From: Pyrenula massariospora
Taxonomy: Eukaryota > Ascomycota > Eurotiomycetes > Pyrenulales > Pyrenulaceae
Assembly: GCA_021030905.1 (NCBI GenBank)
Contig: JAGFMI010000003.1
Span: forward strand, 1,116,001-1,180,000
Length of the DNA stretch: 64,000 bases
Reading direction: 5' to 3'
Position numbers and translations under genes: made by a program. Position 1 is the stretch's first letter; every line of letters begins with the position of its first letter. The notes beneath the pieces are model-generated. The model worked only from the letters and a program-made list of their open reading frames with translations, was not told where the DNA came from and searched no databases. Below, piece after piece: positions 34,270-64,000 of this stretch.

Positions 34270-36462
34270 ATGGACTTTGGCTCTTGGGCTCATTCGTGTC
34301 ATGCTTGCGCGAGTATAGTTCTCCAACGCTGCCCCTCTCGCGAAGAACTTTATGGCCAATTCTGGATGGCCGATGAGCTAGTTCTATTTTCTGAAGCTAG
34401 ACGCGAATCAAAGCGGTGTTCGTTTTATAGCAACCTCTTCGGCAACAGCCACCTCAAATTAAATGAGAGCTTCCACGTCCATCCGAAAGCCTACCTCCAG
34501 TTGTGGTACCGTGGAGAAAATGACCTCCCTCGCGGCCAAATTCTCTACTCCGTCCTCAAACGGGAGGATTTATCCAAGATTACACACGGACCCAACATTC
34601 AGTTCGCAGAACCGTCAATGGACTATTTGCAAGCCCTCGAAGAAGGTAGACTAACTACTTGGCGTTCTTTCTATTGCGGGGCCTGCACTGTAGGATGTGA
34701 AAAAGTCACCCGATACGGAGGGTACGCATATTGACTAGAGAATAGCAGAGCCTTCGGTCACCATCCCAAGCGCGAGACTTATCTGGTCAGGCAATTCCAA
34801 TGTACTCTGCCAGGCGAATACAACTTCGATCAAAAACTGGCTAAGCATCTGTGAGAAGGAACATCCACACTGTCGTCAATCTAGATATACCCCACGGAGG
34901 TTGCTCAATGTTTTGGGAAGCAAAGCCGCTGGTGTCCAGCTTTGTGACTTATCTAGATCAGAGTTTAAGCTTCCTATCAGGTATGCCGCGCTAAGCTACG
35001 TCTGGGGTGGCGCACAGCGCACGCAGACATTGCGGAAAAATTTAAAGAGACGCCTAGGCAAACAATTTCCCTATAAATATCTCCCAAAGGTACAGTCTAA
35101 TCTCATCATACCTCCCTTTTCGATTGGAAAGATTTTCTAACACGGACCGAGCAGACGATTGGAGACGCAGTGACGGTGTGTCGATCAATAGGGATCCAGT
35201 GGCTCTGGGTCGATGCTCTCTGTATTGTTCAAGATAACCTAACAGAGAAGAATGAGGACATTGCCCAAATGGGAGATATCTTTCGGCACGCTAGAGTGAC
35301 GCTGGTAGCTGCGGCAGCAAATACCAGCGACTCTGGATTCTTGGACGGCCACAGAGGAGCCGGAGAACAACTCCATCGCCTCAGCGCTCGTTGTGCCGGC
35401 GGAAACGCAACCACTTTCTTCCTGATAGGTGCCCGAGAACAAGCATCGCGCAACGACTTTGCAATCAACTTACGAGGCTGGACTTTTCAAGAACGGATGC
35501 TCTCTACTAGACTACTGTCCTTCTTTCCCGGCCAAATTACCCTATATTGTCGGGCGGAGCGATTACTTGCTGGCACGGGCTTTTTTGATTTTTCTTTCTA
35601 TGGTGGAATCCTGGATACCCTCCGCCGACGCCTTGGCCCAAGGCAACCGCTCAAAGATCGCCAAATTGATGATGTTGAGACCTGGATGTCCTTCTCAGAG
35701 TTCTACAATCTTAGCAGGTTCACTTTCCACTGGGATCGACTTCCTGCTCTTTCTGCAATTGCCAAGGTTTTTCTTAACGATTCCGCTCGCTTAGGTGACT
35801 ATGTTGCTGGTCTTTGGAGCGAGAAGATCTTCAAGCAGCTTTTGTGGCTCTCTATTGAGCCATACAAAGCTACGCAATCCGATGTCCAATATGTCGCGCC
35901 TTCCTGGTCTTGGGCGTCTTTAGAGAACGGGCATTCTTATTCGTCTCCATGGAGATCATTTTCTGAGATTCCCACAATTGAGGTCTTAAGGTATGATGTT
36001 CAGGCCGCACCTGGAAGCGACAGCTTGGGGGCTCTGGAGAGTGCCATCCTTTGCGTCCGAGGTAGACTGAAACAGGTCATATGGAAACCAACTTCGCAAA
36101 GTCTATCGTTCGACCTAGGCAAAATGACTTTTAATTGTGGTTTCGTATATCCGGACCATTTGAAGCACACCTGTCTTAGACACCCATTAGGGACAACTAT
36201 CGCCGCCCATTTCTTGGAGGTTGCAACATCCGAAGCACCGTGGACAGGATCACAAAAGGATATAATTTTGGATAAGGGTCTAGCAGGACTGGTAGTAGTT
36301 CGAAGCGTCAAGCAGTCTGACGCCTTTGAAAGGGTGGGTCTCGCCTTCATACCCGTCCCTAACAGGTACGGGCGCGATGGGCACACAGGACTTGAAGATG
36401 CAGAGGCATTCCGGCAAGCCTGGACCAGGGAAACGGAGGTAAAGGACCTTACTCTCGTCTAG
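34270..36462 (+). CDS. HET-domain (heterokaryon incompatibility) protein
   Basis: Proposed exons are 34270-34696, 34746-35089 and 35155-36462 (692 residues). Around residue 170 comes IKNWLSICEKEHPHCR, the W-L-x-x-C-x-x-x-H-x-x-C lead-in of HET proteins. The domain itself reads RYAALSYVWGG, LPKTIGDAVTVCRSIG, LWVDALCIVQDN, MGDIFRHARVTLVAA and further on RGWTFQERMLSTRLLSFF, all HET signature blocks. The N-terminal ~140 residues hold SCHACASI and may add a small zinc-binding or recognition part. HET proteins trigger cell death after fusion of unlike individuals and related immune-like responses. The first intron (34697-34745, donor GTGAAA) is my least certain join, so the N-terminal end could differ. 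Confidence 0.8.
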
Positions 36463-44245: not shown

Positions 44246-45512
44246 TCAACGAGAACTTTCCTCTCTTTCTCCAGCTTCCACCTCACTCATCTGGGTCATT
44301 CTTTGCAGCGAGCTGCTATTCTCGTCCCCGTTAGGTTGGCAGACTTCAATGAATCGTTGGATGCTACGCTTCGTTGAGGAGTGAGTGCCAGATCTTGTGG
44401 CAGTGGCTCTAAATAGAGAGGAGAAGCGGCCCCACGTGTGATACCGCCCTTCTGGTGGTTGTGAATGGCTCTGAGCAGGCCTTTGAGGCCCCGCGCCGCC
44501 TGAGTCATGAGGGCGAAAAAGATTGCGGAAAGAACCAATGGATGCAACGATAAGCGCTGGAGTAGAATGTAAGTGTAAGAATCTAGCATAATAGATCTGT
44601 CTTACATGTGTAAAGCTCTATGCCGCTCCAGAGTATGGTCCAAGTTGGGTCCAGCTGATAGGTCCAGGAGCTGACTAAACTAACACGTAGAATGGCAAAG
44701 ACGATTGTAAACATTTCAACCGAGAATACTGCCAACAGGCCAATTTTCCGAGGAGTGCTGACACGCATTCTCCAAAGAATGCTAACAGGTAGGGCAATGA
44801 CTATTGTGTGCTAGTTAGCATCTCTACAATGGTTATATGCGGAGAACGAACTCGTAGCATCTGTCGTGACATCCAAAGTGAAACCTACGTAAAGCCCCAT
44901 GCGAAATAGTCTCAAATCTCCTGGACTACCACAATGCGTAGTGATCTTAGCCCAAGGAGGGAGCAGACAATCAAACGCTATTACGCCAACGCATGCGCAC
45001 CAAGACACAAGTGTGAAAGCTGCCACTCCCCACCAAAAGCGTATCCATTTCCGAAAGTGAATGAAGATACGGCGGAAGAAAATCAAAAATGAGGCTTTAA
45101 CCAACCACAAAGCCACGAAATATAGTATGTGAAACGCAGCCGAACCTCTAAGATAACGTTCCACGCGCTTAGCAAAGCCGGGCGGAGGCAAGCGTTGGGA
45201 GGCAACAACATCAATTTGTAGATACATATCATCTGCAAGGATCTGTAACATAATAGCGAGCGCGACAGAGATCATCCAAGCCAGCCAAACGCATCCATCA
45301 TCGACATTAAATTTTCTCAAGTTATGGTACCGCAGAAACGTACGGGCAAGGATGAACACCGTAGCAAGTACACAGCCTCCCCAGAGTGCTCCCTGCCTTG
45401 GTGTGAAATTACAATGTTGATTCAAGCAATCTGGAGAACTTACGACAAGCACTTCCTTTCTGACTCTGGATGGTACAGCTGGGATCGGAGTGGAAACGCT
45501 GCCGTTAGGCAT
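44246..45512 (-). CDS. Rhodopsin-domain (PTH11-type) integral membrane protein
   Basis: Exons are 45512-44852, 44800-44606 and 44556-44246 (388 residues). Splices use donors GTTCGT and GTAAGA with phases that match. About seven hydrophobic segments are visible: GALWGGCVLATVFILARTFL, DDGCVWLAWMISVALAIML, FHILYFVALWLVKASFLIFF, FWWGVAAFTLVSWCACVGV, a segment restored by splicing (DATIIALPVSILWRMRV), IGLLAVFSVEMFTIVFAILR and LYTSLIVASIGSF. The layout and the motif in LVKASFLIFFRRIF fit the fungal rhodopsin domain (PF20684). There is no CFEM domain. The C-terminal ~90 residues are polar and Ser-rich. These are thought to be surface sensors, but the ligand is unknown. Confidence 0.8.
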
Positions 45513-47293
45513 TTTGAAAAAGATAGATTTCTGTAGTTAGTGGCATCAATCAGTATCAATGCGAGCACATGAAATACTTTCCTAGTTTCAAGAACTGGTT
45601 TCGTTTCCAAGAGCTTCTTCGAGTTGCGAGACCGTATGCTATTAAAGAGACCAGCCACAACACGCCTACTCTCATCCAGACTCGCGCGCCATATGGTCAT
45701 CAGAGCGCGATCAGACCAATGGCTAGCGAGTCTGATGTGATCGGTCGTTGCCTTCTTCATTTGCCTTGGCTAAGACTAGGATCAGTTCGTCTTGTGTTAC
45801 CAAAATCGCCGAAATGGAAAGACCGGTAGCTCGCTTCAAGGGAATGCCTGTTGCGTCAATTATGCGCCGAGTTCTAGCACTGGGCCATCCGGGACATCAA
45901 GACACCTTGACAGTGGTATCCTGGATAATGCCGCAAACTCGACGGAGTTGCAGTGCATCTGGGGTTCCACGACATTCGGTGCTCTGTCTTGATGCGCGTA
46001 AAATTTACTGGAGAGAGCTATCTGCAGACAGTCATGCATATAATTAGTAAGAAAAGCTGTCTGTAGACAGGTACGCATATAATTAGTAAGGAGTGATATC
46101 TGCAGTCAGTTGCACGCAGGGCCCACTATGCAGGCCTATCCTCATCATTTCAAACTTTGGTGGCTAACGGGATGTCACCTATAGCATTCCATTGTCCTCG
46201 TTTGGGATGCGGGCAAGGCAGCAAACTCTGCAAATTGTCCTGTCTTAAATTGAACTACCCCAAATTAGACAAATGCTCAGCCAAGTCTTTAGACTTTGGA
46301 AGTAATTCAATGCCCTCAACTTCCTTTCCAGCTCCAGAATCAGCCTGGATTTGGACCTGATCGTAATCCGTTTGAAAAGTCTGATCAAGCCGCAGAGAAA
46401 ATATTGCGTCGGGGGCTGCATGGGGCCAGAAAGTGGGTCATCACTAACTATTTCCCGTTAGAAAAGCCGACCTTCATTTCCAGGAAACTCTGATTGACTG
46501 TTGACGATGGTAGCCAAATGCACAACCATTTTGCTTAGGTATGGAGCTCGTAGGATATCTAAGACACTGCTAGATTCTGAAAGAGCAGGATAAACCCATG
46601 CTTAAACTCCAAACCTACTCAGCTCGCACACCTTCTTAGTGAGACGACCATCAAAAGCATTCGAGACAAGCAAAGCACTGCAAGCTCCGAACTCCCAGGC
46701 CTCGGAAAGAGTTGCAAGGCGAAGAGTTTCTGGAGCCTTTCAAACCGAACCGGCAAAGAGGAATCAGCATTGTTGGTCCGAATAAAGAAGTAGCTTGAAC
46801 GAGTACCGATGCACGACATAAGCCGGAACATGGCTGAGTATTAAGGTCAAAACTCTGAAAACTGTCAACCTATCCTTTTTGACATCCTTGACGAGCTGAT
46901 CGATGATCAAGGTGCAACTTATAGGTCTGCCTAAAGACCAAAATCGAAATTATCTCCGAAGGCTGAGATACTGCATAAGACTGTGAGACTTTATGTAGGC
47001 CTAACTTAGAGGAACCATGTATCTGCTACCAGTAGTCAGCTCAACTCCAGCGAAGCCTGCTACAAACGAGCTTGGTAATCATTCACTCTTGATCATCACG
47101 GACATGGAAAGGCCTTGGATAAGGACAAGGAGTTCGCTCGAAAAGAAGGCGTGTTGTTTAGACGTTCGGACGAATTTATATTTGATTGGGGTCGAAGTCT
47201 CTCTTTCTGGGCACACTTTCATCTCGCACTTTCATCTCAGTAGTCATCTTGTGTCCTTCTACGAGCGCCAAAGGTCGCATCATTGTTGTTACT
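45513..47293. other. Accessory intergenic DNA with tandem repeat
   Basis: I see no supported gene in this 1.8-kb stretch apart from the 39-bp tandem repeat at 46013. It lies between divergently arranged genes (rhodopsin-domain minus, P450 plus). Confidence 0.45.
46013..46119. repeat. 39-bp tandem repeat, about 2.7 copies
   Basis: Units at 46013-46051, 46052-46090 and a partial one at 46091-46119. Each begins with a small inverted repeat of the form CTGTCTGTAGACAG and the first two end in GCATATAATTAGTAAG, which is identical in both. Differences are mostly transitions. Confidence 0.85.
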
Positions 47294-49131
47294 ATGCTTC
47301 AAAGCATCTATAGCATTATACATGTCTCATCTATCAAAATAGTGCTTGAGAATCACCACATTCCATTTATTTTTATTCCCGCGCTCGCCATATGCTATTT
47401 CATATGGGCAATATGGACTTTCTATTTGATGCCGACTTTTGATCATAGAACACCAAAGGAAGTACCATACTGGATCCCACGTTCGTCATCTAAACTCCGC
47501 CCCCGGATCTTTCGTTGATTAAGTGGACTTGCTAACAGTTATCCATAGTCATAGGTCATACCTCGTCCTCATCCGTTTAGTAAGAAGCTATCTGACGGCA
47601 AAAGGTCATTCACTCGCAGCTTTTTCGAAATATAAATTCTGCTGTCGAGTCAGGCGTGTTCGTATTCCATTAATTATGCTTCATTCTGGTTTAACAGAGA
47701 GATAGAAACGCTTCTGATGGGTCTCGGTTACCGTTCTCACTTCGGATGTTCAAAAAGCGTCTTTATGTCATCACATCTCCAGAAGACACGGCGTTAGTCT
47801 ACCAAAACTCTGATGCCTTCTCTTGGGATGCGCACATGGACATGCTTCTAGATTGTTTTGGTATGACTAAGAGTGCGCGAAAACGTTCTTGGACCAAACC
47901 TCAGCGAGGGGACATCCTTTTCAAGGACCGCGATCAGTTGAATCCCCGGCAAAAGTGCTTCGTCCATTTAAGCGAAGATATATTTATCAAACAGCTTCTT
48001 CCAGGAAAAAATATGTACGTACTAAGAGACACATTCTTGCACCACCTGGAAGAGGCTCTTTGCTGGGAAAAGCTTCGAGGCCGATATCTGTTGCAAGAGA
48101 ACAACAACGTACTCCAGATCTCTGTCAAGCTATCCTGTCGGTTGAAGTTAGCAGACATCATCACACGTTCGATGCTTGGAGATTTAATATTCGAACTGAA
48201 TCCTAGGTTTGCTGAACCCTTCATCACTGTGAGTGAGAACGTTTGGGCAATAATGCTCAAATACCCGAAACTTCTAATGCCTCGGTTGAATATGGCGAGG
48301 AAAGAACTTTCAACTATTCTGCACTTGTACATCCAAACTCCCGAGGAAGCCCGGCATGGAGAGTGTTGGGCAATCAGAAGCCTCATCAAGTCCATGGAAA
48401 GCTTTGAGATAGACAATGACAGCAAGGTGGCAATGTTGTTAATGACATGGTTGGCGTAAGTATTTCTCATTAATGCACACTTTTGAAAGGATGAGCTGAG
48501 GCTGCATAGCGCTTATTTCAACACCATTAATGCGCTTTTTTGGCTGTTGTCTTACCTGCTCCACAACGCAGATGTCTTGAAGGCAATTAAACAAGAGACC
48601 AAGCCAGCATTCTGCAATGGTACGGTCGATATGCAGTACTTGAGCGAAAATTGCCCGCTTTTAACATCGGTCTGGCTTGAAGTCTTACGCTTACACGCTG
48701 GTTTTTGGAGCATTCGACAAATTGAGCGTGATACAGTCGTATCTGGGAAGATCCTTAAAGGAGGCAATACAGTAGTCGTTCCTTACCGACAGCTTCACCG
48801 GAGCGAGCAGATTTGGGGACCATCCAAGAACTTGTTCGATCCTGAAAGATTCTTGAAGACTCCAAGAATGAAGAATCATCCAGGTTATCGACCTTTTGGT
48901 GGGGGAGTTAGCCTCTGTCCTGGACGTCACCTCGCCAAAGACGAGGCATGTGGATTTGTGGTCATGTTGCTCCACCGATTTGATGTATGGCTTCCGATGT
49001 CATCGGATGGGAAGCACCAACAATTCCCGGAGCTAGATGCGTCCAAACCTCCCGTAGGAATTGATAGTTGCATACCATCTATGGATCTGATCATGAACGT
49101 AAAGCTGAAAACAGAAGAAAATGATGCCTGA
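47294..49131 (+). CDS. Cytochrome P450 (N-terminal exons unresolved, possibly broken)
   Basis: The clear parts are 47294-47480 (MLQSIYSI.. with membrane anchor FIFIPALAICYFIWAIWTFYL and VPYWIP), 47698-48455 and 48510-49131. The latter two join across a GTAAGT..TAG intron to give TWLAAYFNTINALFWLL (I helix), EVLRLHAGF (K-helix ExxR), DPERF and FGGGVSLCPGRHLAK, with the haem-binding Cys. Between the anchor and 47698 the sequence should supply about 25 residues (usual G-H motif, present as LIGHTSSSSV at 47553-47580), but every splice I tried meets a stop or frame break. So it is either mis-spliced by me or a pseudogene. If active, it is an ER monooxygenase of the microsomal fungal CYP type with prostacyclin-synthase-like spacing. 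Confidence 0.7.
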
Positions 49132-54534: not shown

Positions 54535-55734
54535 CTAAGGAACCGGGCCCGTCACGATCGGACCATCGTACGGTGGAAGCGGTAGCGGAGTCACTTCTCT
54601 CTGCTGGTCAATACGCTGACTAGCATATCTTAGATACTCTCCAAAAGTTCCAGGGAGAACGTCCGGATCCTTTTTCCCAGACGCGTTCCAAAGGGAGGAG
54701 AGCGGCTTCACTTTCATGTTGTCGTGGGCATGGACAGACTTTATCAGAGTCGTTCCATTCAGGAGCTGAGTGACAAGTGCTTCGGCTTCCTTCTGTAGAC
54801 TTGGATCAACGCCGTTGTCAGTGGATCGCGGGCAGCTCAGCAGGTTGAAGAGATGCGGCGTGTTGTAGCGTGTGATAGATTCCGGAGCCATGGCCTCACT
54901 TTGTGAATTGAGCAGGAACACGTGTTTTTTGACGTACTCCGGACCATTCCAGCCAGTTGCAGGATCCACAGAGACCTTCAGTTTCTCCCATGCAAGAAGG
55001 TTGACTGAGTACTCGGCCAAGTCCTTGCCTCCCAAGTCTAGGTTGAATATAAACGAGACACCTGGGCTGAAATCGGCTGGAACGCCTTGAAAGAGAGGAT
55101 GTTTATCTAAGTCTGTGCAGTCCACACGGTCCTTCCAGACTTCCATGATAATATCATGCAATTTCTTGATGCATGGGTTGCCTTTTTGGGTCACGATACA
55201 AAAATTGTGCATGCTGCCCCAGCCATTTTTGTAAAGCCCATTGATGAAACCACCAACTTCATAGGGGCATTGGGGATCGCATATCTTGTCCCAGAAGGTC
55301 CTCTCGAGATTACCGACGATCATTATGCCGACGTCAAGATAAATCCCACCATACTTGTGCAACAATGGCAGCCGTACCATATCTGACGTGTGCTGTGCAG
55401 CATAGGGACCGCGCATTGTTCGAGCTGTAACAGCCTTGGGTAGATCGTCTGCAGTAAGATAGTTGAGGGCGTTTCTTGGTGAGCCCTCAATCAAGTCGAG
55501 GATTCTCACAGTCCAGCCAGGACCGAGCTTGCGGACCCATCCAATTACGTTACGCCTTCGCCAGGAATCCAAGCCCTCCAATCCCTTGTCCCAAAAGGCC
55601 CAGACGTTCTTCTGAGACTTGACCACATTTTCAGGGTTCATCAAAAGATTGATGATCTCATCGTCAGTTCGGGAGTCTAAGTCAGTGCTATCACGTGGCT
55701 TTGCTCCCGGAGGAAGAGGAACTGAGTGGAGCAT
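54535..55734 (-). CDS. Capsular-polysaccharide-type glycosyltransferase (Caps_synth, GT32-like)
   Basis: A single exon of 399 residues. KNVWAFWDKGLEGLDSWRRRNVIGWVRKLGPGWTVRILD is the N-terminal nucleotide-sugar fold. HTSDMVRLPLLHKYGGIYLDVGIM is the donor-binding segment; the usual DxD appears as D-V-G, so the second Asp is missing, as in some Caps_synth (PF05704) proteins. There is no signal peptide or membrane segment, so it may act in the cytosol. It would transfer a sugar to a small acceptor or glycan. It sits in the cluster region next to a sulfotransferase-like gene (divergent), an exporter and P450s, which makes it a candidate tailoring enzyme, though this is inference. Confidence 0.78.
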   Translation of the reverse strand: MLHSVPLPPGAKPRDSTDLDSRTDDEIINLLMNPENVVKSQKNVWAFWDKGLEGLDSWRRRNVIGWVRKLGPGWTVRILDLIEGSPRNALNYLTADDLPKAVTARTMRGPYAAQHTSDMVRLPLLHKYGGIYLDVGIMIVGNLERTFWDKICDPQCPYEVGGFINGLYKNGWGSMHNFCIVTQKGNPCIKKLHDIIMEVWKDRVDCTDLDKHPLFQGVPADFSPGVSFIFNLDLGGKDLAEYSVNLLAWEKLKVSVDPATGWNGPEYVKKHVFLLNSQSEAMAPESITRYNTPHLFNLLSCPRSTDNGVDPSLQKEAEALVTQLLNGTTLIKSVHAHDNMKVKPLSSLWNASGKKDPDVLPGTFGEYLRYASQRIDQQREVTPLPLPPYDGPIVTGPVP

Positions 55735-56176
55735 TATGACCGAGCGTAGCCAAGGATGGTCAATGTGAATTTCTCAAACGATTGTTGACTGTGAGTTCGT
55801 AAGATGTGCGGCAGGTATTCAAGAGAGCAGCGTCACTCCAGAGGTTGACGTAGAGCTACGATATCAGAGCGCCGATGGTTTCTTTTTTACGGGTGGTTAC
55901 GCGTCAGGATAACAATATAGTATATGATAGGTTACCACGCAAATAAGCCAGCCAGCATGCATGCAGGTACTATTTGCGCTCGCCGTGCCCTAAGCCTGAT
56001 AAAGGAGATAATCTGAAAAGCCAGGTCAGCTTACAATGCATTACGGCTGATCAGGATACCCACTCCAAAAGTACCTAGTCCCGGGCTATCTTAGGTGATC
56101 ATGAAATAAAATACCAAGTCACTTGCTTGTCTCCGCCGCGATTGAACAATTTTCTTCATTTCCGGTCTTTGAAATC
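55735..56176. other. Divergent promoter between glycosyltransferase and sulfotransferase-like genes
   Basis: A 442-bp shared upstream region. Divergent pairing suggests possible common control. No motif recognised with certainty. Confidence 0.45.
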
Positions 56177-56986
56177 ATGTTGTTCTCATTCATTGAATAT
56201 CTTGGTCGATACTGGGGCGACGACGCACCCACTGATCAGTCCGATGACCTGAAAGTCATTTGCGCAGGCCTTTCCAGATGCGCAACCTCGACTTTGAAAC
56301 ACGCCATTGAAACAGAGCTGTACGGCAAGAAGTGCATGCATTTTGGATACATCATGCGTGACACGAAGCTCATCCGCATGGCCCAACAGTGTGCTCTCGA
56401 GGACAACACGGCTCAACGCCAAAAGCTCCTTCGGCGCGTTCTCAAAGGTTGCACCGGCACGACGGACATTCCCGGCTGCCTCTTTGCCGACGATCTCATG
56501 GACATGTACTCGGATGCAAAAGTCATCCTCAACCTGCGGGACGGCGGTGGAGACCCGTGGTACAAAAGTACGGAGGTTGCACAAGTCGGGCGGACCTGGT
56601 GGGAATATTGGCTGCTTTACCTAATCCCGCAGATGTACCATCGCTATTGGGCAGACGGAGCTTGGAAGTTCGTGTTCGAGAAGAGATTCGGGGACTTTCC
56701 TGCCGTTCCTGACCGTGTTTGGCAGAGGAGCTGGTACGAACTACACGCCGAGTGGGTGCGGAAGGAAGCAGCCAAGAGAGGGAGGCCGCTTCTGGAGTGG
56801 AGACCAAGTGATGGGTACGGGCCGCTTTGCGAGTTTCTGGAGCTCCCCACAACCGGTAAGCCGTTGCCAAGGCTGAACGACAGCGCAAAGATCAAAACCT
56901 ATTACTGGGCAGTTATGGCTATCGGACTCGCGCATTGGATCCTAGCAGTCGGAAGCTGCCGTCTTATCATATCATTGATCCTATAG
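56177..56986 (+). CDS. P-loop sulfotransferase-like protein (Sulfotransfer_4)
   Basis: A single exon. I start at ATG 56177 (MLFSFIEYLGRYWG; 269 residues); the frame also opens upstream at a non-ATG codon. LKVICAGLSRCATSTLKHAIE is the 5'-phosphosulfate-binding loop region of fungal Sulfotransfer_4 (PF17784) proteins. GCLFADDLMDMYSDAKVILNLRD holds the usual D/E-x-L-x-x-x-Y-P/S-x-A-K-V-I-L block and the following Arg. The last ~20 residues (AHWILAVGSCRLIISLIL) form a hydrophobic C-terminal anchor. The family is widely annotated as sulfotransferase, but few members are biochemically proven. It could add a sulfate to the product of the nearby cyclase. Confidence 0.75.
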   Translation: MLFSFIEYLGRYWGDDAPTDQSDDLKVICAGLSRCATSTLKHAIETELYGKKCMHFGYIMRDTKLIRMAQQCALEDNTAQRQKLLRRVLKGCTGTTDIPGCLFADDLMDMYSDAKVILNLRDGGGDPWYKSTEVAQVGRTWWEYWLLYLIPQMYHRYWADGAWKFVFEKRFGDFPAVPDRVWQRSWYELHAEWVRKEAAKRGRPLLEWRPSDGYGPLCEFLELPTTGKPLPRLNDSAKIKTYYWAVMAIGLAHWILAVGSCRLIISLIL

Positions 56987-58481
56987 GGCGTTTTTCAGGC
57001 GGCACATCGTTACAGCCACAATAATTGATTTACAATTCAATATTGCAGAGAATGTACTTTTTGTTCGGTCGAATGCGGAGTATTGCGCCAAGAGTAGTCA
57101 TTGACGTAATTCACTACCTGCTGTATTGTAAGATTATGTGAAATACCATTACCTGAACGACGGCCGTGGCATTTAAAATCTAAATTACCTCTCCATAAGT
57201 TAGCCTTACTATGCTAAAGATTATAAACAAAATTAGGCTTTTACACCTTAAAATTTTGAGTAATACAAACCTTACTTTACTCAGGATTCTATAAATTATT
57301 TATATTATCGTACGAGATACCGCGCTTAAATGTTGTGAATTTACGCCACTGACTACTTTTAATGCATGCCTTCGTAGATGAGTGACGTACCGTTGTGTAT
57401 GCTTAAGTTCGTGAGCTGCGTGGTAGACAGTCAACCTCCTGCAACTGACAATACCCCGACCTCAGCTTGTAACGCAGGAATCTCGTATTTTCACACTTTG
57501 TCACGACCGTAATAAGGTGCTGACGGAAAAATGGCTGAGAGCCTTTAAATGCACTGCGGCACTATGAAAATCGGCGATGGCTTGATAAATCTAAGCGAGG
57601 GCTGTGATCTTATCTAACACCGTGCATATCGTGCAAGGCGGCTGGATGTTGATACTCTCAACCGCCGACTGTGACCCGTGTCCTGCAGGGAACCTCGTCT
57701 CCGGCTCGGTTATCGTGCACATACTATGCTAATTAAACATTTCAAATATTCAGAACACTTTTGCCTCCAGTATGTGGTGCGATAGTCATTTTATCTCCCC
57801 TTATACGTTGACATTGAAGACAAAGAGCTCGTAGATCTATTCGGAGCGACTTTGAGATCTACGAAGCCTATATGGAGCTCGGGGAATATAGAGACTATTT
57901 TGGTCTAGTACAACCCCGGCGTTGCGCCTCGTTACAAGGATGCCGAGACGGTGTAGGATCTAATCAATCACCCAATTAATCAATCGGAGATCTTGTGGAT
58001 ACTTTCGGGGTCTCAACTATCCTGATGCTCGTCTCGGGTGGTACCACCCACTCTTTGTGATCTTACGTGAGATTATGAAATGGGTCCAGAAATGTTCTCG
58101 GACCTTTTGGTTGCGATAAGAAATACTTGGTGGCTTAAGATCCCGGAGCGGCTTGAGGATCCAACGCTTTTGTTTGCTTGTCATGGGCGTTCTACGGTAA
58201 AGGCGGCACCTATTCCTAGCTGGGTTAGACAAGAGCGAATCAAAAAAAAGTACCAAGCAAAAAGTGGCTTAAGCCCCTGAAAGACGGTACACAGTTCACT
58301 CTCTCATCATCACTTTGATACTCATAATCTTGTACGACTTATGAGATTCGACAGCAGGGCCAAGGATATTGAGATGCTGGACGGACAGCGGTGACAGAAA
58401 TTCTCGGGCTCTTCATCTCTTTCGTCTTGGAAGCAGCGGCTTATTCCACATCCGGTAGAATAGAAGTCTTCGATCGGCACA
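56987..58481. other. Intergenic with MITE-like element
   Basis: This 1.5-kb stretch is AT-rich around 57180-57320 and holds the inverted-repeat element at 57080-57370. I see no gene. Confidence 0.45.
57080..57370. mobile_element. MITE-like element, copy A (~290 bp)
   Basis: The left end at about 57080 has CCAAGAGTAGTCATTGACGT and the right end, ending at GCATGCC (57370), reads on the minus strand TTAAAAGTAGTCAGTGGCGT. Both resemble the ends of the element at 63263. The interior is AT-rich, non-coding, and shares short blocks with the other copy (for example an ATTACC[CT]GAA block near the left end). Differences are mainly C/T and G/A, as after repeat-induced point mutation. Confidence 0.6.
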
Positions 58482-60441
58482 ATGAACCCTGAAAAAGATG
58501 GAAGTATCAGTCCCGTGCCCAAAGAGGACCGACAGAGCAACGAAGAGGCTTATTTGACCGGCTGGAAACTTTTTTTGACATCCTCTGGGTACATTCAAGG
58601 AGAAGTGTTGGCGGCACGCACTGACAGATCTTAGCATATTCATAAGCTTATCGCTAGTGAGCTTCGAATCAACCATAGTAGGGAGCTGCATTGTCGAAAT
58701 TACTAAGGACCTTGCTGCATTCGACCAGAGCGGTTGGATATTCACGGCATATATGATAACGTATTCAAGTAAGTGGAATAAATGACATTTGCATCAAAGT
58801 TGATAGAAGAGAACTGAACCGGTAAATTCTAGGCTTCGCCGTCATTACTGCGAGGCTGAGTGATGCGCTGGGTCGCAAATTCATCATGCTTACCTCTTTA
58901 ACAATCTTTTCGATATTCTCACTGGCATGCGGATTTTCTCAGAACATGACAACACTTATCGCATTTCGGGCAGTCCAAGGGATCGGCGGTGCCGGCATCA
59001 ACTGCTTAAGTCTAGTTGTGATTCCCGAGATTGTCCCTCCCAAAAAAAGAATGATATACGGCGCTGCGAACGCCGGCTTGAGCAGCTTGATGGTAATTCT
59101 CGGATTTACCATGGGAGGTATCGTTTCAAATAGTATTTCATGGCGTTGGATTTTCTGGATCATGTCAGTGCTTGACGTATCTATTATCTGTCTCATGTGT
59201 GACTGCGCATGACCTTGAAGTTGACACATGCATTAGGGTTCCGCCTTCTCTGTTCTCAATTGTTATACTGGCTTTAGTTATGCCAAACCTGCATCATTCT
59301 GCAAATGAGAACCTTAGCGTCTATCAGTACGGAGTTCGTGATCTCTTGTCTCCGGCACTTGCAAGAGCATCATATTCAGCCTTTGATGAACGAGGCGCCA
59401 TACTACTACTGCTCTGTCTTGGCTTCTTCGTCTTCGCTTTGGGAGAAGGAGGCGGCGAAACTTTCAAATGGGGAAGCGCTCTCATAATATTCAGCTTGGT
59501 GTTTTCGCCGTGTTTACTTGTACTGCTCATATTGCACCTACGCAGATGCGATAAGCTCCACAAGCAGGGGGAATCACGTCGAGAGCCGCTATTTCCGCTC
59601 AGCCTCTTCAGGGACAGATTAGTGGTGTCCCTTTTCTCGTAAGCTTGTGAAATCAACGAAGCAAAGGTCGCGGCTACTTACCATTGCAAATTAGCTACGC
59701 CCTCCTTGCGGGACTGCCGCTTTACGCAGCCATCCTTATCATGCCTCAGCGCTTTCAGGTTCTTCAAGGGGACACTCCAATAAAGGCTGTTGTACATCTT
59801 CTTCCACTAATACTGACGCTTCCGTTCTCGATAATTCCCACCACTTTCATAGTGCAACGACTTCACGTGCCATTTGTCGTTCCTATGGCCTGCACTTCTC
59901 TGATTGCGGCTGTGGCCATGGGGGCGCTCTCGGCGCTCAAACAGAATCAACAAGAGGCGACTTATGGGTTGGAAGCAGTGATTGGAACTGGCGTAGGTCC
60001 AGGCTTGGCTGTGGCTACGATGTTGGCGCTGAACCTTGTGCGAGGCAAGCCAGCTGCACATTCCGGTGCGTTTAGTTCATATCTTTCGATATCGAAACAG
60101 ATCCAGCTGACACCCCTCCAGCGGTCACCATGGCTCTCTTCGATGAGATTCGAGCATTTAGTGGTGTCGTCTCGTCATTCATTTGCACAAACATTTTGAA
60201 CTCGCGGGTCCATCGGTTCCTCTCGGAGTGTGCGGATTGCACTGCTCGAGACAAAACAATACTAGAGGGCACCCCGAGTGAGCTCGACTATGTCAGTGAA
60301 CAGATCAGGTCGGCCGCGTTGGATCTCTTTAAAGATATTTTCTCACTTGACCTAAAAGTTATCGCAATTATGGGAGGCGTGTCAGTCATTGCGGCGGCGG
60401 GCTGCTACAGCAAAAAGTACAGCCATCCTAAGTGGACATAG
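58482..60441 (+). CDS. MFS multidrug/efflux transporter, DHA2-like (14 TM)
   Basis: Six exons, 58482-58588, 58635-58768, 58833-59163, 59237-59638, 59695-60065 and 60122-60441, all in phase (554 residues). For intron 1 the acceptor TTAG at 58634 is needed; the earlier ACAG would meet a stop. After a polar start come AYLTGWKLFLTSSG, VSFESTIVGSCIVEITKDL, SDALGRKFIML (loop 2-3 motif), RAVQGIGGAGINCLSLVVIPEIVPPKKR and GAANAGLSSLMVILGFTMGGIVSNSISWRWIFWI (motif C), typical of DHA2. Hydrophobic segments continue to the end, and the last part holds FSLDLKVIAIMGGVSV. It likely exports a drug-like metabolite at the plasma membrane. Its place between the sulfotransferase-like gene and the P450 fits a cluster pump. 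Confidence 0.85.
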
Positions 60442-61141
60442 ACCTTACTTTGCATTGGTACGATTTTCATTAACTCCAATGTCCAGGATATCCGCGGTAG
60501 AATGTCCTATACTATCGCCCTTCCCGAAAAGGCAACTACAAGACGGTGCAAGACTCATGTCAAGCGAAGTTTTGCAGGTAAAGCAGTAGAGCGAGTTCGA
60601 GCCGAGGTAAGCTAGAATTCTGAGTTCCTTGAATACATTGTGATTTAGTTACTGTGCGCCCTTTCTATCCGATTGAATTAAGACCACTCTTTCGGAACAA
60701 TGTAAGCGGAGCAACGTTGCCACGGAGCATGTGCAACATTATTTTTCCTCTAATCTTTTGACATACCTTCACCTTTTCGTTTCTTAGCCTGTGCGTCTAA
60801 AGGCGACACCAAAATGTTGTTATCCATGGTCAAAGTGACCAGCCGGCGGCCGCATTTGCAGGTCCACTTTGTGACGTACCCAAGGTTCCACCAGGTGGTC
60901 GAAGATGATCAGGGACTCGACATTGTAACCCTGAGGCTACATATGAAAGTTAAATGAAGATTGACGGTTCTGTAAACAGACTGAAACCGAAGTCAATGGT
61001 CTCACGAACGTCTTGATCGATTGGAACCTGAAACCTTCCATGCTGAGATCCTGTAGCAGTGGTACAAGGGACTTCGGAAAGCACAGACTTGCTGGTAGCT
61101 AAACAACGAGCTGAGCGAACTATGCGAATTCTTGTCTCCAG
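60442..61141. other. Intergenic, convergent
   Basis: This is the 3' flank of the MFS exporter and of the P450. No gene or repeat recognised. Confidence 0.45.
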
Positions 61142-62963
61142 CTACACTCGTGCTTCCTCCAAATGCCATCTTGTTCTTCTCCGAACTCTCACCCTCAGAT
61201 CTCCATCCATTCTAGCGGTATTACTCCCTGGGATATGGTTCTCCATCGCTGGGAAGTCTCGTTTTCCATCTGAACGCCTCTTCGAGAACCCAACGACTTC
61301 AATATCGAGCCCAGCCAACACTGTCGCTAACGCTACCAGAACTTCCTGCTTTGCAAATATCCGTCCCGGACAGAGATGGTGTCCTCCACCAAATGCGAGG
61401 AATCTGCCCTGAGTTCCTGTCGTTGAGAATTTGGCCTTCTCCGAACCCTCATCATGGCGAATCCAGCGTTCTGGATGGAATTCTTCAACGTCAAAGGCAT
61501 CCGCTTCTGAAGATTCTCCTGGAGCTGATTTGTTCGTATCCTCAAGGTGCCGCGTAGTCCAATAAGGGTCGCGATGAGTCATATACGGCGGTGCTAAGAT
61601 CAGATCTCCTTTCCGCATGTAGTGGCCGCCGAGCTGCGTGTTTCTGAGGGGAGTGCGAAAGACTATTAGATCCACATACACGCGAAGTGTCTCGTGAAAT
61701 GCCGCGTTCATAAATGGTGAACGCATGAGATGTGGAATATCAAGCGAATGTCCACTCTCCGATACGCGGCTCGCGTCGTTGACTTCGTCCTTTATGCGGG
61801 CTAAGAAGCTGGGCCCCTCACCTGTCGGAGAGAGGATGTGCATGAGGAGCCAGCCCATTGAAGGGACGGCGTTGGTATTCAGGCTGTGCCACAGTTTCGT
61901 TACTTCTCAATGTTTTAGTATCAAAGGGAAAGGTCATTTACCCAAATAAAAGGCCAAGGTCCAGTGCGGCCAGCGCCCTCGTACTTGCACCAAACCTTTC
62001 GCCAATCCCATGTCTTTCCCGAACATGCTTTGCTCCCCAGTATGGATGCCAATCCGATCCTGCCTCATCAATAGCGTCTTTACTATGCAGCTTCCGCCCC
62101 TTGGAAATCCAGGCTTCAAGTCCGGCAAGGATTCGCTCCCTAGCTGCGTATGCCCCCGGTGCCAACCACCTGCCGCCACCGAAGCTTAGAGTTGTGAAAC
62201 CCTTGTCAAATGCCCAATATGAGCTCTCAAAATCTGGGATGAATTCTTCGATATGTTGTCCAAAAAGCGCTGTGAGGGAAGCAGAGGCCATGATCGGTCG
62301 AAACCATGTAAAGAAATCAACTTCTTTCCATTCCTCCAATCCCTCCAACGTGTTAAGGCGAGATTGTAGCCTCTCAGCAAACTTCGTCGTTAATAAATTC
62401 ACTGCTTTTGTCGACAATAAATTTCTCTGCCCGCTATCTCTGTCAAGCTTAAAGTACTCTGGTAGCTCGTCTGCCTCCGCTCCGGGACCTGAATGAAAGA
62501 TTTTGGAATCGGCACCTTTGGGCAGTCCAAGGCCATTTTCAAGTACTGTGATGTTAAAATGACCTCTCGTAACCGCCTTCGAGCTTGTCAGACTCAGAAC
62601 ATCTTCTTGGTGAGACAGAATATGAGCCGAACGACCACCAAATAAGAGTGTGATAGCACTGATGTTTGCAGTAGCCTGCTTGTGCTGGATCCATCTCCAG
62701 AACCTGCCGACCTTGTTGTTAATCAACGGCCATATTGCCAGTCCCACCCAAGGTAAAGTGTAGGGGGCTATCGGAGGCGGGACCGCCGATTTCCTGGACG
62801 ATCGCGCATTTTGATTCAATGAAACCGCGTACTGGTAGCGCAATGAAGTGAACAGCCAAGTAACAATGCAAGTAACTGGAATGACAACTAAGCTTGTTAT
62901 GATTGAGTAGAGTGTAAAGCGTACTATTAAGAAAGCCATTTCAGAGGGTGAAAAGGTGTCCAT
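61142..62963 (-). CDS. Cytochrome P450, divergent to triterpene cyclase
   Basis: Exons are 62963-61942 and 61883-61142 (587 residues). The 58-nt intron (GTAAAT..CACAG) joins LGLLFG to LNTNAVPSMGWLLMHI, the I-helix, where an N-T-x-x-x-P motif takes the place of the usual acid-Thr pair. The N-terminus holds a membrane anchor (FLIVRFTLYSIITSLVVIPV). Then come AFHETLRVYVD (ExxR), FHPERWIR and FLAFGGGHHLCPGRIFAK with the haem-ligating Cys. The I-helix Asn in place of the acidic residue resembles prostacyclin-synthase-like/CYP8- and CYP7-type enzymes. It would be an ER monooxygenase. It shares a 729-bp promoter with the cyclase gene, so it is the best candidate to oxidise the cyclase product. The ATG at 62963 precedes the anchor; an upstream start at 63041 is less likely. 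Confidence 0.88.
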
Positions 62964-63138
62964 TGCACAAAGATGGGAATGACTAGATCTGGCACTCCAA
63001 AGGCGTAAGCTACCTTTGCAGAGAGTAAAAATGCGGTTCACCTTACGATATCAACGAGACCCTCCATTGTTGTAGCAAGCAAGTCACTCAGCACGCTGGA
63101 CCGTGAACAATCTCACATGTCGGCATCTCACGCCACAT

Positions 63139-63213
63139 GTCAGCATGCAACGGGTCAGCATCAAACCGATCAGCATCGAACGCGTCAGCTTACCATGGGT
63201 TAGCATCCAAGAA
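63139..63213. repeat. 15-bp minisatellite, five degenerate units
   Basis: Units start at 63139, 63154, 63169, 63184 and 63199, with core GTCAGCATC and variable ends. It lies in the promoter between the P450 and the cyclase, nearer to the P450. Confidence 0.75.
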
Positions 63214-63262
63214 CAAAGCTCGACGGTTCGGTTGTGTTGAATGACAATAGCTCGAATACGAG

Positions 63263-63492
63263 GGCGTGCATCAAAAGTAGTCAGCAGCGTAATTTACCTG
63301 GCACAGTAAAATACAGTACTATTACCCGAAAAACCGTTACAGAATTTTAAGATTGAACCCCAAGTACTCTGAAATTAAATCTTTCTAAACACTCTTTATC
63401 GCAAATGGATACTAATTGTAATATATACAGAATACGCGGATACTTCTTCTCGTCAGAGTAACTTACCCTATTTACTGCTATTGATGCACGCC
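63263..63492. mobile_element. MITE-like element, copy B (230 bp)
   Basis: Terminal inverted repeats of about 35 bp: the left end starts GGCGTGCATCAAAAGTAGTC and the right end, read on the minus strand, starts GGCGTGCATCAATAGCAGTA. The interior is AT-rich and non-coding. The flanks show no clear target duplication longer than a possible TA. It resembles copy A at 57080. Confidence 0.7.
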
Positions 63493-63692
63493 TTAGTGTA
63501 CCGAAACTCCAATACAAAGAAAGCTCTTGATACGATGTCAGCAGCTAGAATCATAAATGCGCCGCACTTAGGTCTATAGATATCGTACCGTAGAGTATAA
63601 GTCTGCGTACCACCGGGCAATGTTCAAGTAGCTCGGGAAGCCGTCTCACACTGTTCATTCTTTACTCCGGCATCAAACGCGGACCGACCAAC

Positions 63693-64000
63693 ATGATTGC
63701 ACAAGAGAGCACCATTGCAGAAGTGGATGAAGCTGTGAAGCTGGCTGCTGAACATGCTTTCCATCGCATGGATCCCACTGGGCATTGGGTTGCAGAGGTG
63801 CTTGCAGATGTCACATTCACAGCTGAGTACATCTATGTCCGTCACATCTGGGGAACCGGCTTTGCCTCGGACGGCCATTTATTGAAACAGTATATTCTCT
63901 CTGAGCAAAGGAGCAACGGTTCCTGGGCAAGAGCCACCTATTATGAAGGAGATACCTCTACGTCGACGCAGGCATATCTGGCCCTTAAGATCCTTGGAGT
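63693..64000 (+). CDS. Squalene-hopene-cyclase-type triterpene cyclase (5' part, truncated by window)
   Basis: The frame opens at ATG 63693 and runs past the window edge (102 codons and 2 nt visible). It begins MIAQESTIAEVDEAVKLAAE. DPTGHWVAEVLADVTFTAEYI is the first QW-like block, with the G-H-W and A-E-Y motif typical of prenyltransferase-like alpha/alpha-barrels. SEQRSNGSWARATYYEGDTS is a QW motif followed by the E-G-D-T/V-S-T-T block, and TQAYLALKILGV follows. The arrangement matches fungal squalene-hopene cyclases rather than lanosterol synthase, which needs 2,3-oxidosqualene and differs here. The catalytic D-x-D-D motif and the C-terminal half are outside the window, so product class, and whether a glycosyltransferase is fused as in enfumafungin-type enzymes, cannot be told. 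Confidence 0.85.
   Translation, partial: MIAQESTIAEVDEAVKLAAEHAFHRMDPTGHWVAEVLADVTFTAEYIYVRHIWGTGFASDGHLLKQYILSEQRSNGSWARATYYEGDTSTSTQAYLALKILG

Follow-up and report, generated by a model that had tools for sequence, protein, structure and literature searches.

Does a triterpene cyclase gene that is cut by the edge of a DNA stretch form a biosynthetic gene cluster with the genes beside it? The question arises at the right end of a 64,000-nucleotide stretch of the Pyrenula massariospora genome (contig JAGFMI010000003.1, positions 1,116,001 to 1,180,000), hereafter the window, where the original prediction placed a triterpenoid cluster with an edge-cut squalene-hopene cyclase (SHC)-type gene starting at 63693. 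We read the contig beyond the right edge of the window, keeping the window numbering for coordinates above 64000. Short GT-AG introns and the gene content mark the sequence as fungal. Our analysis indicates that the locus is probably a small fungal triterpenoid gene cluster, centred on a single-domain cyclase of the SHC type and a cytochrome P450 (P450) transcribed divergently from it. The core consists of the following features.

63693..65666, plus strand: SHC-type cyclase gene, single exon, 657 amino acids (aa); its first 308 bases (63693..64000) lie in the window
61142..62963, minus strand: cytochrome P450 gene, 587 aa, one intron (61884-61941)
62964..63692, no strand: common upstream region of the P450 and the cyclase, 729 bp between the two start codons

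The extended contig completes the cyclase gene. Its frame runs unbroken from the ATG at 63693 to a stop codon at 65664-65666. Pfam scans, made on selected open frames at the locus, placed PF13249 (315 bits) and PF13243 (350 bits) over the full length of the protein, without fusion to a glycosyltransferase. The DXDD motif is present as DVDD (residues 385-388), with the equivalents of D374, D376 and D377 retained. The protein scores 390 bits against the Alicyclobacillus squalene-hopene cyclase and 112 bits against human lanosterol synthase (LSS). Foldseek, queried with its AlphaFold model (mean predicted local distance difference test score of 89.4), ranked 3sqc, 2sqc and 1sqc on top (template modelling (TM) scores of 0.86-0.88), and the human oxidosqualene cyclase (OSC) next (0.83-0.85). 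The genome (37.8 Mb in 33 contigs) has PF13243 in two places, this gene and one on another contig, C22. The latter shows a DCTSE motif, has human LSS as its best PDB match (592 bits) and is identified as a lanosterol synthase. Hence, the cyclase at our locus is not the sterol enzyme, in line with its DVDD in place of a DCTAE-type motif and with its better score against SHC than against OSC. We found no sign of decay by repeat-induced point mutation in the gene (TpA/ApT = 0.56). A degraded frame and a lanosterol synthase had been named beforehand as the outcomes that would refute the cluster, and the gene is neither. Judged from its sequence, it is an intact SHC-type triterpene cyclase, for which catalysis is predicted.

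The second component of the core is the P450 that was expected on the other side of the common upstream region. It starts at 62963, has a GT-AG intron and matches PF00067 above the cut-off; solved structures gave weak matches only (CYP51, CYP7A1 and others). Several of its 26 listed relatives come from Dothideomycetes and one is named CYP7B-like. The closest of them, P0121, shows 57% identity and the remaining ones at most 38%. P0121 (327 aa) stops where the first exon of the window P450 ends, which is what a gene caller blind to introns would produce. The cyclase has a similarly isolated best match: among the relatives listed (best 120 of 1322), P0001 is the closest, at 63% identity and also 657 aa long, and the others reach at most 47%. 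P0001 and P0121 have the same source (Logan, lgn), and each lies on a contig of 10,902 bp. Such an equality has a chance of about 1.7e-5 for a given pair, and 0.04 cases are expected over the 119 x 26 listed pairs. The pairing of cyclase and P450 seems conserved in a second organism, and for no other pair of genes at the locus do these comparisons suggest linkage beyond adjacency.

In the pathway that we propose, the cyclase would take squalene or 2,3-oxidosqualene, supply a proton from the middle Asp of DVDD and close the chain to a polycyclic triterpene, and the P450 would hydroxylate or oxidise the cyclase product. A major facilitator superfamily (MFS) protein, the gene of which adjoins the P450, may export the product. 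The substrate, the product and the transport are what we infer in this proposal. The genes of the cyclase, the P450, the MFS protein, a sulfotransferase and a glycosyltransferase all have open frames and lie inside 11 kb (54.5-65.7 kb). The features around the core are given below.

47695..49131, plus strand: second P450 (main exons), PF00067 in the last long exon
54535..55734, minus strand: Caps_synth / Gly_transf_sug-type glycosyltransferase, 399 aa, PF05704 and PF04488
56177..56986, plus strand: Sulfotransfer_4 sulfotransferase, 269 aa, PF17784
58482..60441, plus strand: MFS transporter, six exons, 554 aa, MFS_1
63139..63189, plus strand: 15-bp tandem array (Tandem Repeats Finder), 3.4 copies, GTCAGCATCAAACGG
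about 66405-67398, minus strand: RTA1-like membrane protein gene, about 290 aa
70780-71720, plus strand: short-chain dehydrogenase gene, right of the window

To place the cyclase in its family we inferred two trees, one with FastTree from the listed relatives and the Alicyclobacillus enzyme, the other with IQ-TREE from 55 chosen rows. The cyclase and P0001 form their own clade in both (FastTree support 1.0, stem 0.60; ultrafast bootstrap (UFBoot) 100 in IQ-TREE). The stem is not exceptional, several fungal tips being equally long. The sister group of this clade (FastTree 0.988, UFBoot 98) holds fusions of cyclase and glycosyltransferase (from Hypoxylon, Caloplaca and others), an Emmonsia cyclase, Stereocaulon and others; UFBoot for the larger group was 99 when the fast-evolving query cyclase was omitted. 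The characterised EfuA, PolA and AfumA were represented by stand-ins, namely the Hypoxylon fusions and a protein of A. lucknowensis named afumA (P0119), which falls outside the sister group. The query cyclase groups with none of the clades taken here to represent fernane makers. The sulfated or glycosylated hopane/fernane-like product that had been predicted is not supported, and a hopane or fernane skeleton is in any case unreadable from sequence.

How does the locus compare with known systems? Clusters of the enfumafungin type are described from Hormonema carpetanum (efu), Humicola fuscoatra (fso) and H. rubiginosum (PMC8403587, PMC12667498, PMC11371599). Like them, our locus has an SHC-type fungal cyclase with DXDD beside a P450, and its clade neighbours theirs. 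In those clusters the cyclase carries a fused glycosyltransferase of the PF03033 type, and an acetyltransferase is clustered with it (PMC8403587, PMC12667498, PMC11371599). In contrast, our cyclase has a single domain, and the glycosyltransferase nearby belongs to the Caps_synth family; no acetyltransferase was found among the open frames scanned with Pfam. The polytolypin cluster of Polytolypa hystricis, as described in PMC11371599, combines a motiol synthase, unfused, with three P450s. It shares with our locus the association of an unfused fungal SHC-type cyclase and a P450, whereas here one P450 is adjacent and a second is distant; this comparison is by published description. Beyond the fungi, the cyclase has the whole fold of the Alicyclobacillus acidocaldarius SHC (1SQC), its DXDD, a His at position 451 and a Tyr at position 420. 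It differs from that enzyme in overall sequence (about 34% identity) and by a Cys at D447 and a Gln at E93.

We then compared the active sites, in Alicyclobacillus numbering. Our choice of positions, and the roles of D447 and H451, follow what is generally described for the Alicyclobacillus SHC; our searches found no usable publication on SHC residues 447/451. The His at position 451 is common to the cyclase and P0001 (among the 120 listed relatives, 109 have Arg, nine His and two Gly). Position 420 is Tyr in both proteins and Phe in 117 of the 120. Two pocket positions set the pair apart: only the cyclase and P0001 have Ala at 437 and Trp at 606, where 112 of the 120 have Met and 112 have Tyr, respectively. 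A hand alignment had suggested that the Cys at D447 copies Cys533 of OSC. We rejected this, since the profile alignment sets D447 against Glu532 of human LSS and a neighbouring residue against Cys533.

Several observations weigh against a functional cluster built on this cyclase. Cys456 occupies the place of D447, an Asp in the Alicyclobacillus enzyme as well as in 120/120 listed relatives; its codon, TGT, is two base changes away from an Asp codon. Likewise, Gln93 occupies the place of E93, which is Glu in all 120 and in the Alicyclobacillus enzyme. In the literature consulted, neither residue serves to define the family. At 102 near-invariant columns (at least 97% conserved among the listed relatives other than P0001) the query cyclase departs 11 times, P0001 four times and other relatives at most five times. 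The branch of the query (0.43) is twice that of P0001 (0.21). The conserved pairing, for its part, requires that P0001 and P0121 lie on one contig, which is presumably so given their equal size and source, and not from contig names. A second equal size was found in the lists, 4,978 bp, for the cyclase P0046 and the sulfotransferase P0147 (0.10 expected); we took it as chance and not as a link between these families, because the sources differ (ena and jgi). Furthermore, a six-frame regular expression, which an intron-broken motif would escape, found no Zn2Cys6 regulator pattern in 109 kb. From its changed residues, its departures and its branch length, the cyclase could be weak, altered or on its way out. 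In the extreme case its frame would be open and the enzyme dead or nearly dead, which we consider unlikely. The loss of D447 and E93 and the doubled branch are what such decay would leave, and the near-invariant columns show nine query-only against two P0001-only changes (p 0.065). However, the excess is general: there are 11 against nine such changes at columns conserved at 80-97% and 31 against eight (p 0.0003) at 50-80%, and the excess is not specific to the near-invariant columns (Fisher p 0.71). The active Alicyclobacillus enzyme itself departs at 15 of the 102 columns, and therefore departures alone do not imply lost activity. Moreover, the 657 codons show neither a stop nor a change of length relative to P0001. 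In 200 runs of a selection-free point-mutation simulation the frame stayed stop-free in 15% at 5% protein change, in 2% at 10% and in none at 20%, which makes an open frame unlikely past about 10% change without selection. The model also gives a confident SHC fold, and the frame of the P450 is intact as well. We read this as constraint that is altered yet not absent, and the cyclase may be altered catalytically. A bolder and, to us, quite unlikely proposal is that the acid site of the cyclase has been rewired (D447, the carboxylate beside the DXDD:His pair, to Cys and E93 to Gln) and the lower pocket remodelled, in a clade represented here by two sequences, such that the enzyme would take another substrate or stop the cascade elsewhere; the skeleton would be new to fungi, oxidised by the P450 and perhaps sulfated by the neighbouring sulfotransferase. 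A conventional fernane pathway of the enfumafungin or polytolypin type would account for the sister position to the fusion clade. We regard it as very unlikely, given the missing glycosyltransferase fusion, the well-separated clade that the cyclase forms with P0001 and pocket residues (Ala 437 and Trp 606) unlike those of most listed relatives.

The probable two-gene core leaves the question of whether the neighbours belong to it. The original prediction extended the cluster to the MFS, sulfotransferase and glycosyltransferase genes; its SHC-type locus with a P450 partner is supported, but membership of the sulfotransferase and the glycosyltransferase is not, adjacency being what joins them. 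That all five genes form one pathway, with a sulfated and/or glycosylated triterpenoid as its product, is in our view doubtful. The close packing of the five genes is in its favour. The sulfotransferase was rightly recognised as such: PF17784 is above the cut-off, the P-loop-like GLSRCATSTLK is kept, and the protein resembles schistosome sulfotransferases (E 4e-14), its Asp97 aligning with the acceptor-side Asp of the schistosome enzyme. In that enzyme, Asp91 is reported to lie close enough to the acceptor hydroxyl for a hydrogen bond (PMC4618941), and this would be the aligned Asp if the construct numbering is offset. The listed relatives of the window sulfotransferase (best 63%, next 36%) have a profile much like that of the cyclase (63%, then 46-47%), which also fits a joint pathway; Sulfotransfer_4, by contrast, has about eight places in the genome. 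The glycosyltransferase is of the family predicted, with PF05704 and PF04488 above the cut-off and 55% to its closest listed relative, and is the sole Caps_synth place in the genome. Its LDVG replaces DXD, which is family-wide. Nevertheless, the listings for the glycosyltransferase and the sulfotransferase together hold 67 relatives; 61 of them belong to the glycosyltransferase family and are spread over many fungi (Aspergillus, Chaetomium, Colletotrichum, Hypoxylon and others), and among these a link to a cyclase is not visible. None of the 67 is on a 10,902-bp contig, although so short a contig may end before them. The glycosyltransferase family gave no PDB match and differs from the PF03033 type that enfumafungin-like cyclases carry as a fusion; a sterol-type glycosyltransferase (PF03033) as a partner was discarded, its four matches in the genome all lying away from the locus. 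Finally, the sulfotransferase and MFS genes are separated by about 1.5 kb of gene-poor DNA of lower GC content (57000-58480, 0.44).

The MFS gene is intact by a hand model with five GT-AG introns, and MFS_1 is above the cut-off. The predicted MFS gene was thus recovered, but not its 14 helices, as a crude hydropathy scan does not separate 12 from 14. The protein is a possible exporter, placed in the pathway by adjacency. The further P450 expected at 47-49 kb is also present (47.7-49.1 kb), 12 kb from the first and with 24% identity to it over 239 aa. Directly downstream of the cyclase and convergent with it lies the RTA1-like gene. We rejected it as a dedicated self-protection gene: RTA1 occurs at about 19 places in the genome (27 stretches), and hence its adjacency says little. 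The short-chain dehydrogenase, about 5 kb past the cyclase, is a possible tailoring enzyme. Pathway roles for the sulfotransferase, the glycosyltransferase, the RTA1-like protein, the dehydrogenase and the second P450 are unproven and suggested by position. To the left of the locus are a HET-domain gene (35101-36462) and a fungal-rhodopsin-domain gene (44811-45536), as in variable fungal regions.

The tandem array lies inside the common upstream region of the P450 and the cyclase. Its core pair, TCAGCAT-N8-TCAGCAT, has seven exact occurrences in the genome and 52 with at most one mismatch, against six for the backwards control. We do not claim a regulon, as the genome sites are scattered and one is inside another P450 gene.

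In the literature searched, which leaves most subscription journals out of its reach, no published description matched the locus. Clusters of this kind are already known (enfumafungin, fuscoatroside, polytolypin), and the locus adds a member with an unusual cyclase without founding a class of its own. Antifungal fernane glycosides arise through fungal cyclases of the SHC type; enfumafungin, the parent of ibrexafungerp, is an example (PMC12667498). The clade described here, beside the enfumafungin-type group and paired with a P450, makes a sensible choice for genome mining. The changed residues at D447 and E93 are the most interesting part of the locus, as they offer a natural test of the function of these positions.

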